Assembly (NCBI GenBank): GCA_000317655.1
Contig: CP003940.1
Location: 310,001-374,000, forward strand
From: Cyanobacterium stanieri PCC 7202
Lineage (GTDB): Bacteria > Cyanobacteriota > Cyanobacteriia > Cyanobacteriales > Cyanobacteriaceae
Direction: 5' to 3'
DNA length: 64,000 nucleotides
The translations under genes were made by a program, and so were the position numbers. Of this stretch, positions 25,114 to 26,790 are shown piece by piece. Numbering within the stretch: the first letter of the stretch is position 1; every line of letters begins with the position of its first letter. The notes below the pieces were generated by a model. The model had not been told where the DNA came from. It did no database searches and was given only the letters and a program-made list of their open reading frames with translations.

Positions 25114-25250
25114 GGCGTTGCTGAATTTTAGGTATGGTTTCTCATGGAGGTGAGGAATAGAGAATGGGCAATGGTGGTAGTATTTTGAATACTAGGTTAT
25201 AAAAATAATTCAACTATATTTCATCTCCTAATTAATCACTCCCAAAAATT
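25114..25250. repeat. Dispersed repeat family 2, copy 1
   Basis: GTTGCTGAATTTTAGGTATG, then heptamer-like GGAATAGAGAATGGGCAATGG, TTTTGAATACTAGGTT and a tail with TCTCCTAATTA. An imperfect copy in the same order lies at 33361-33490. It is non-coding and precedes the iterons of the DarT-DarG gene. Confidence 0.6.
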
Positions 25251-25267
25251 AATTATTAATTAAAGCT

Positions 25268-25322
25268 ATTGATTTGTACAGTGTTATCATTGATTTGTAC
25301 AGTGTTATTATTGATTTGTACG
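25268..25322 (+). promoter_or_regulatory. Three 21-bp iterons abutting the DarT-DarG start codon (probable operator)
   Basis: ATTGATTTGTACAGTGTTAT plus one variable base repeats at 25268-25288 and 25289-25309; a third partial copy (ATTGATTTGTACG) fills 25310-25322 and ends one base before the ATG. The period of 21 bp is two helical turns. There is no Shine-Dalgarno sequence between the repeats and the start. A protein bound here would block transcription or initiation, so autoregulation is a natural hypothesis. Confidence 0.75.
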
Positions 25323-25323
25323 A

Positions 25324-26790
25324 ATGAAAGGCGGACAAAGAAAAGGAGCAGGTAATCCTAGTTGGGTTAACAGACCTACAAAAGTAATAAGAATTCCTCA
25401 TGTATATAGTGATTTTTTGTTGAAATTATCAAGAATGTTAGATAATGGGGAAGATTATGAAGAAATACACAAATATGTAGAAAGTTATTATAAAAATAAT
25501 ATTTTTGATTATGACTTAACGTTTAATAGTATTAATACTGATATAACTATAAATAATTTCTTTGAACAAATGGCAAAAAGAAAAGTTGGTATTGATGGTT
25601 TGTATTATATAACTGATATAAATAATATCCCATCTATATTGCGTAATGGTATTTTGAGTCATTCTAAAATAAATCAACTTGGTATTAAACCAGTTACTGT
25701 TTATGATCAAGACATAGTCGAATTAAGAAAAAATAAAAAAGTTAATGATAAACCTTTGTGGGATTTCGCCAATTTATACTTTCAACCAAGAAACGCAATG
25801 TTGTATCGACTGATAAGAAGTGTAAACTCAGAAAATATATGTATTTTACAAATTAAAAAAACTTTTTTGACGTTAAAAAAGTTTCAATCTAAGATATACA
25901 TATCTGATGGAAATATGGCTAGTTCAGAATCCAAAGCTTTTCCGTTGCAAGAGTCTGAAAATCTTTTTAACGAAATATTGCAGAATATTGATTCGGATTG
26001 GTGGGATAGAAACGATGGATCTCTCAGAAAAATGATGGCTGAATGTTTGGTTTATGATTCAATACCCCCATCTCAAATACAATCAATATATGTTTCTAGT
26101 GACAATAATCGTAAATCTTTAATCAAAAAGTTAAATGCTGAAAATATAAGTTTGTCCAAAATTTCTGTTGTAGCCGAGCCGCATAAATTTTTTAAGCCTA
26201 ATTCTGTTGATTCAATACATGATGATGGTAATGGTACAAGAATACAATTAGTAAAAGGAGACTTGTTTTTTTCTCATGCTCAAACTTTAACTATCAGTGT
26301 TAATTGTGTTGGCGTTATGGGAAAAGGATTAGCTTCTACAGCTAAGGATAGATTTCCTGACGTTTATGTTAAATATCAACAAGTGTGTAGAGATAAAAAA
26401 TTAAGTTATAATCGCCCTTTTCTTTATAAAAGAGAATCATCTGTAGCTGATTCTTTGATAGATAGTTTTTCTGGGGTAAAAGATTTGAATGACTCTCAAC
26501 AAACTTGGTTTTTATTGTTTCCAACCAAATATCACTGGCGTAATAATTCAAGTTTAGATGGCATTGAAAAAGGATTAATTTGGTTATTAAATAATTATAA
26601 GTTAGAAGGAATAACCTCTATAGCTATGCCTTCATTGGGTTGTGGACAAGGAAACTTACAATGGAGAGATGTAGGTAAACTTATGTGTAAATATTTTGTA
26701 CAAATGAAGGGTTTAACTACATCTATTTATTTGCCAAACAAGAATATTGATCCAATTTATTTGACATCTGATTATCTTCTCCCTTTTTGA
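25324..26790 (+). CDS. Single-chain DarT-DarG-like toxin-antitoxin fusion (ADP-ribosyltransferase plus macrodomain)
   Basis: 488 aa in three parts. Residues 1-60 start MKGGQRKGAGNPSW and contain VIRIP, a GGxRxGAG-type module that looks DNA-binding. Residues about 88-265 match DarT, which ADP-ribosylates DNA bases: YYITDINNIPSILRNGI, NLYFQPRNAMLY (Arg156, NAD-site) and MAECLVYDSIPPSQI (Glu240, catalytic). Residues about 306-470 match the DarG macrodomain that removes the mark: VNCVGVMGKGLA (Asn327, Lys334), FPTKYHWR, SLGCGQGNLQW. Normally these are two genes; here one frame holds both with catalytic residues intact. In-frame stops lie just upstream, so ATG 25324 is the start. AT-rich codon use differs from neighbours, suggesting transfer. 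Confidence 0.85.
   Translation: MKGGQRKGAGNPSWVNRPTKVIRIPHVYSDFLLKLSRMLDNGEDYEEIHKYVESYYKNNIFDYDLTFNSINTDITINNFFEQMAKRKVGIDGLYYITDINNIPSILRNGILSHSKINQLGIKPVTVYDQDIVELRKNKKVNDKPLWDFANLYFQPRNAMLYRLIRSVNSENICILQIKKTFLTLKKFQSKIYISDGNMASSESKAFPLQESENLFNEILQNIDSDWWDRNDGSLRKMMAECLVYDSIPPSQIQSIYVSSDNNRKSLIKKLNAENISLSKISVVAEPHKFFKPNSVDSIHDDGNGTRIQLVKGDLFFSHAQTLTISVNCVGVMGKGLASTAKDRFPDVYVKYQQVCRDKKLSYNRPFLYKRESSVADSLIDSFSGVKDLNDSQQTWFLLFPTKYHWRNNSSLDGIEKGLIWLLNNYKLEGITSIAMPSLGCGQGNLQWRDVGKLMCKYFVQMKGLTTSIYLPNKNIDPIYLTSDYLLPF

Follow-up and report, generated by a model that had tools for sequence, protein, structure and literature searches.

In ordinary toxin-antitoxin operons regulation follows the ratio of two proteins, and in type II systems a DNA-binding domain on the antitoxin side acts on the operon's own operator. 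The operators of the ribbon-helix-helix superfamily are palindromic and often repeated. Structure 7omu, presumably from Thermosipho, carries DarT and a macrodomain on one chain in the same order as the cyanobacterial protein analysed here (E 2.3e-105 over query residues 93-486), and since it is already a DarT-macrodomain fusion, the joining of toxin and antitoxin is not in itself new. The alignment begins at residue 26 of the 406-residue 7omu chain and does not extend to residues 1-92 of the query, which indicates that 7omu is without the N-terminal domain (the head) with which we are concerned; it has Ala at the position of our Glu240, presumably as an inactivated construct. RptR, which controls the DarTG2/type I restriction-modification island of EPEC, is a separate, small (79 aa), all-helical DNA-binding regulator, and its three direct repeats overlap the -10 and have a 6-bp palindromic core, TAGCTA, two sites being enough (available excerpts of PMC12255303). 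Two ribbon-helix-helix repressors, Arc_1 and Arc_2, are described beside type V-K CAST (available excerpts of PMC9938897). None of the literature titles and abstract openings that we saw described a cyanobacterial DarTG with a DNA-binding head joined to it.

Our analysis of a 64,000-nucleotide stretch of the Cyanobacterium stanieri genome (hereafter the window; the genome is a single contig of 3,163,381 bases) concerns a gene on the + strand at 25324..26790, stop included. According to domain and structure matches, its 488-residue product consists of a head, a DarT-type ADP-ribosyltransferase (residues 93-290; 25600..26193) and a DarG-type macrodomain (residues 307-476; 26242..26751), all read from the + strand. 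The Pfam DarT profile PF14487 matches residues 94-290 over its whole length (1-201 of 201) with E 4.5e-45 and 154.3 bits against a gathering score of 22.5, and Pfam Macro matches residues 400-453. In PADLOC the DarT match spans residues 92-289 and that of the DarG macrodomain 307-476, the latter with E 2.3e-44 over positions 2-150 of a 329-position profile. The NCBIfam equivalog for DarT, NF048013, gave 81.5 bits and missed its cut-off of 150, for which reason we regard the DarT part as a divergent member; the DarG equivalog, NF048014, gave 144.6 bits, below 250, over profile positions 1-153 of 338. By the PADLOC and NCBIfam profiles the C-terminal half of DarG is absent from the fusion protein, so that any antitoxin action would need the macrodomain alone. 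Residues of catalytic type are conserved throughout the alignments: the invariant Glu240 (26041-26043), which we take to be catalytic in DarT, and the invariant Lys402 (26527-26529) of the FPTK motif, to which we assume a role in DarG, are unchanged in both alignments (22 rows; 19 rows), and Y152, F153 and R156 of the YFxPRN motif are unchanged in the 22-row alignment. These matches suggest that the fusion protein has both toxin and antitoxin activity.

Directly before this gene, on the same strand, stands an array of tandem repeats (25268-25321). Iteron 1, ATTGATTTGTACAGTGTTATC, occupies 25268..25288 with a TGTACA core at 25275-25280; iteron 2, ATTGATTTGTACAGTGTTATT, which ends in TTATT, occupies 25289..25309 with its core at 25296-25301; and a 12-bp partial iteron 3, ATTGATTTGTAC, occupies 25310..25321 with an incomplete core, TGTACG. 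The array thus amounts to 2.6 copies of 21 bp, two full units and a 12-bp third, with 32 of 33 positions equal at a lag of 21, and two bases (GA) separate its end from the ATG at 25324. A preliminary description of this DNA had named three 21-bp iterons ending one base before the start codon; the 21-bp repetition holds, while the copy number and the gap are to be corrected as given here. That the repeats are real was confirmed in several ways. Their exact tandem match of 20 nt is the longest in the window at lags 4-79, and no other 12-mer there recurs three times running at one period (8-59). First-order Markov resamples never reached 20 nt, the longest run being 14 both for the whole window (n=60) and for the local 264 nt at 28% G+C (n=3000). 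A second copy of the two-unit pattern was not found in the 3.16-Mb genome with up to 3 mismatches allowed, as would be expected of a dedicated operator. We also considered a host LexA or NtcA box as the array's identity and rejected it, since the array did not match the consensus of either box.

The partial iteron contains a TGA (25312-25314) in frame with the fusion gene, and no in-frame ATG, GTG or TTG lies between it and 25324; hence, among standard start codons, a complete head can be read from ATG 25324 alone. As previously described, there is no Shine-Dalgarno site, the words GGAG, AGGA and GAGG being absent from the + strand between 25200 and 25340. Iterons 2 and 3 overlap an extended -10-like element on the + strand, TGTTATTAT (25303..25311), a consensus match only, with 9 of 12 consensus positions and a TG ahead of the second hexamer; the search that returned it gave 3 promoter-like sites in the region against 1.5 in shuffles. 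Together, this element and the lack of a Shine-Dalgarno site are compatible with leaderless or Shine-Dalgarno-independent translation. Further downstream on the + strand, Met83 (MAKRKVGIDGLYYIT, 25570..25572) lies near the position at which head-less DarTG fusions typically begin, and it is a possible internal start; if used, it would give a head-free toxin-antitoxin.

The first 82 residues (25324..25569, + strand) are the unusual part of the protein. A profile built from eight heads gave matches in 127 of 388 genomes from the order (E<=1e-4) and in 30 of 386 genomes of a phylum sample (E<=1e-5), mostly in open frames of about 75-180 residues among the matches listed. The C. stanieri genome has a single head at E<=1e-4, that of the fusion protein, and so no close paralogue competes for the array, whose reader is most simply the protein encoded behind it. 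Among 57 head members scanned, PADLOC gave no match, NCBIfam one family and Pfam three (each in one member, none DNA-binding), and PHROGs seven families, the two commonest of which (15 and 8 members) have no function. By these searches the head is part of a widespread cyanobacterial family that Pfam, NCBIfam and PADLOC leave unnamed. Genome contigs scanned with the fusion protein alone as query gave no match. On plasmids we saw one head relative (a Kovacikia plasmid, 40 residues at 47.5%) and 78 records matching DarT or the macrodomain, all 78 of which cover less than 80% of the query; the 40 rows listed begin at residue 89 or later.

The family's conserved pattern is GGxRxGxGxKxxW, then TKxIRVP, then two helices, which in C. 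stanieri takes the form of a GGQRKGAG arm, TKVIRIP, helices at residues 26-40 and 45-59, and a linker. An hhalign comparison of the head core (16 of 57 head rows, the 41 with at least 15 gaps dropped) with cyanobacterial RHH_1 (28 stretches from 30 loci) gave a probability of 67.9 and a score of 22.0, against 11.9 for the best of 100 column shuffles, and paired TKVIRIP and the next helix with the strand and helix of RHH_1. In the structure model of the head both helices are present and no strand is modelled; the full-length model gives the head's helices moderate confidence and the linker, at residues 60-88, low confidence. The isolated head model gave no useful match to PDB folds (7 matches, best E 8.5), and searches by sequence gave no useful relative of solved structure. 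The one profile comparison suggests that the head core may be ribbon-helix-helix-like.

If the head reads the array, one would look for related sites before other head genes. We assembled a first set of 99 loci (L042-L140), hand-picked from the matches listed, in which 107 profile matches reduced to 94 unique records and, after 3 under 30 bits were dropped, to 70 clusters at 70% identity. An unseen set of 48 further loci was picked from the remaining matches, partly in the same genomes as the first, and 12 of these were dropped as too like each other or the first set, leaving 36 clusters. The core, TGTACA or TGTNACA, was defined by eye on the first set, tested there, and then tested on the unseen set. 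The start of a head gene was taken as the nearest ATG upstream of the head, and some distances may be wrong.

In the first set the core lies within 100 nt of the start in 34 of 70 head genes (33/69 without the C. stanieri gene); of 69 other genes taken from these loci 1 has it, and shuffled upstream DNA of the 70 head genes gave a mean of 5.6 and a maximum of 11. Cores per gene come to 0.71 in the last 100 nt, against 0.015-0.20 in the other 100-nt bins. A test of all 6-mers in the 120 nt upstream of the 70 head genes put GTAACA first (19/70 against 29/824 windows) and GTTACA second (21/70 against 45/824), followed by the AT-rich words TATAGA, AATCTA and ATTATA in third to fifth place and by GTCACA and GTGACA in sixth and seventh; TGTACA ranked lower (9/70 against 18/824). 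The control upstream regions have 37.7% G+C, against 32.6% for the head genes. With the motif fixed beforehand, 18 of 36 head genes of the unseen set had the core. It occurred in 1 of 29 upstream regions of other genes and in 14 of 508 windows, and shuffles of the unseen set gave a mean of 2.0 and a maximum of 8.

The earlier expectation that repeats would stand upstream of homologues is thus borne out, as far as the core goes, for about half of the head genes. It fails for the other half, 36 of 70 first-set and 18 of 36 unseen-set head genes having no core near the assigned start, so that about half of the head family is left unexplained by it. Repetition of the core is rarer still, at least two cores within 100 nt being seen in only 15 of 70 first-set genes (14/69 without C. 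stanieri) and 2 of 36 unseen ones. The same earlier account had cast GGQRKGAG as the operator reader. As the main determinant this was rejected, the core being commoner before heads without GGxR (20/30) than before heads with it (13/39); the reader is likelier to be the ribbon-helix-helix-like stretch after GGQRKGAG, that is TKVIRIP and the two helices.

We also tried conservation of the whole 21-mer and rejected it, the best ungapped matches before relatives averaging 12.1 of 21 positions and those in shuffles 12.2. The feature common to the relatives is the core, in some loci within a TTGAT(T)TTGTAC form (L062, L063, L067) or a TTGA(A/G)ATTGTACA form. The nearest look-alike precedes a stand-alone head (L232) and has three TTGA(A/G)ATTGTACA units, TTGAAATTGTACA, TTGAGATTGTACA and TTGAAATTGTACA at 165, 192 and 213, spaced 27 and 21 bp. 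Paired cores lie 19-22 bp apart in three loci (L130, L132, L105). A separate observation concerns a TTTAGATATTGACACAAAATCAAAA-like upstream stretch in five loci (L049, L068, L071, L075, L077), of which a sixth (L045) has only the ACACAAAATCAAAA part; the heads of these subfamilies are mostly of the GETQTIRVP type. This stretch is likely a second operator type, and it falls outside the TGT(N)ACA count, as does the TTGACACAAAATC-like stretch shared by, for example, L049, L071 and L077.

The company that the head keeps is varied. In a scan of 10 proteins we found it fused to an SNF2-type helicase (L117, L118), an AAA_30 ATPase (L113), a dynamin (L119) and an ArsR-type HTH (L132). Ten proteins downstream of heads were picked by eye, 8 with a Pfam match, and these include KilA-N (L043, L065, L072), Rha (L093), Bro-N (L069), a C5 DNA methylase (L050) and a transposase (L129). 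In a locus of the same genus (L103) a stand-alone head gene with TTGTAACA and TTGTTACA sites is followed, after 383 nt, by an hsdM-like gene of type I restriction-modification, an arrangement reminiscent of RptR. Elsewhere (L128), tandem repeats of about 35 bp, TTTATTAAACTTGTTAACGGGTTTTAATTATAATG, lie upstream of a GIY-YIG protein.

Among 28 other fused DarTG loci examined, which are part of all DarTG matches, the head is absent in 26. The intact head-less genes number 22 (16 of 20 loci, leaving out L142 with its head and the broken L147, L150 and L153, together with 6 of 7, leaving out the split L242), and in the 150 nt before the start only 1 of the 22 (L013) shows a core, a lone one at a distance of 100 nt. 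The second intact head-DarT-macrodomain protein (L142, fetched shortened as L112) is 49% identical to that of C. stanieri over residues 2-487, with a head match at E 6.8e-17; no TGT(N)ACA core lies in the 160 nt before its GTG. By eye we noted an inverted pair, TTGAAACAT/ATGTTTCAA, within 60 nt before that GTG, which is perhaps its own operator form. A third case (L012) is decayed: a head remnant (E 0.0046), of which 20 residues align ahead of a stop, lies directly before DarTG, and TGTTACA is still present about 19 nt upstream of the ATG of this remnant. In a tree considered for a single origin of the fusion the three fall into one nine-row part (support 91/90); the head-bearing rows form no supported group there, and the backbone is weak.

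Between an upstream Tab2-like gene and the iterons lies a dispersed repeat of about 130 bp (25114-25246), which has 12 further matches across the genome and inverted-repeat-like ends, GGCGTTGCT/AGCAATGCC, in several copies; it is probably a MITE-like element. In the genus relatives G056, G485 and G495 the Tab2-like gene is kept and a search for DarTG at E<=1e-20 gave no match. The next gene in G495 and G056 encodes a protein starting TNTLVVEKEK or TNTLIVEKEK, which we take to be peptide deformylase, and in G485 a different gene follows.

How could a gene of this kind keep itself in check? We think it probable that it encodes a self-regulating DarTG toxin-antitoxin protein whose head binds the iteron cores and represses its own gene, no partner being needed. 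As a ribbon-helix-helix-like DNA-binding domain, the head would dimerise and bind the TGTACA cores, and the two complete cores, helically phased at 21 bp or two helical turns, would allow cooperative binding. Since the sites overlap the promoter-like TGTTATTAT and reach the start codon, head dimers lying over the one and up against the other would block transcription and keep the gene low. Expression would rise once there is less of the protein or its head is lured elsewhere. The toxin part would ADP-ribosylate thymidines of single-stranded DNA, and the macrodomain of the same chain would take the ADP-ribose mark off. The idea of an autoregulated unit of head, toxin and antitoxin, already present in the preliminary description, is partly supported: it appears right in outline, with an array in front of the gene and comparative evidence behind it, once the part given there to GGQRKGAG is set aside.

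Other readings of the array have to be weighed against this one. The iterons could be the operator of another host regulator, with the head binding elsewhere or serving as a localisation or dimerisation domain. The half of head genes without a core and the coreless intact relative L142/L112 would suit such a regulator, but the core tracks the head: it stands before 1 of 69 and 1 of 29 neighbouring genes in the two sets and before 1 of 22 intact head-less DarTG genes. Moreover, the consensus LexA and NtcA boxes go unmatched and the genome holds no second array, so that we find this reading unlikely. A functionless array, born of chance or slippage and coincidentally like those of relatives, is suggested by its shortness (2.6 copies), its AT-richness and the adjoining dispersed repeat element; however, neither the 60 nor the 3000 resamples reached it, and the core class is the most enriched class of upstream words in the family and held in the unseen set. 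We regard a chance origin as extremely unlikely.

The array might also act in RNA, at the 5' end of an mRNA with little or no leader, or chiefly shape initiation without a Shine-Dalgarno site. The missing Shine-Dalgarno words and the closeness of the repeats to the start codon agree with this, as do the leaderless cvkR and cas12k mRNAs reported for cyanobacteria (available excerpts of PMC9938897). Yet the cores of relatives are scattered over distances of 4 to 148 nt upstream of the start, within the 160 nt searched, and the two copies of a pair may be separated by 60-70 bp; this suits DNA sites and makes a role in RNA very unlikely. Finally, the head may activate rather than repress, or act only with the protein on ADP-ribosylated or phage DNA. 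The location of the sites, across a promoter-like element and up to the start codon, favours repression instead, and RptR, with three direct repeats over the -10 before the DarTG2 island, represses (available excerpts of PMC12255303); we consider an activating or conditional head highly improbable.

More generally, one may ask whether this gene is one case of a wider scheme. On that broader proposal our judgement is evenly divided: a three-in-one gene, with an operator-binding head, a DNA-ADP-ribosylating toxin and a DNA-de-ADP-ribosylating antitoxin on one chain, would repress its own promoter and exemplify a cyanobacterial family, widespread and still without a name, whose heads would read operators. 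Such heads are either joined to effectors of defence type (DarTG, SNF2-type helicase, AAA ATPase, dynamin) or placed before phage antirepressor-like, methylase or restriction-modification genes, and many have TGT(N)ACA sites of their own. A single chain has no ratio of two proteins to follow; it has to respond to its own abundance, to its substrate or to something that lures the head away. In the boldest extension, invading DNA rich in TGT(N)ACA could titrate the head and so switch the toxin gene on. The protein may have a role in phage defence. If the head works as proposed, the gene is a defence unit both minimal and self-contained, and the family of heads, found in the genomes counted above, would offer a protein-to-operator map with a predictable core motif and varied effector fusions.

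Thus the locus shares features with several described systems. Like RptR, it has direct repeats with a 6-bp palindromic core before a DarTG locus; unlike RptR, a separate protein (available excerpts of PMC12255303), its putative regulator lies within the toxin-antitoxin chain, and it is set apart from that system by its core (TGTACA at 21-bp spacing rather than TAGCTA). The head may resemble RHH_1 in a putative strand-helix-helix pattern, with a profile similarity above that of shuffles, but no Pfam or NCBIfam model names its family as ribbon-helix-helix, and many heads have an extra GGxRxGAG...W arm. In type II toxin-antitoxin systems the operator is read from the antitoxin side, whereas here toxin, antitoxin enzyme and the presumed operator-binding head form a single polypeptide, so that the level of this protein, and not a toxin-to-antitoxin ratio, would be sensed.
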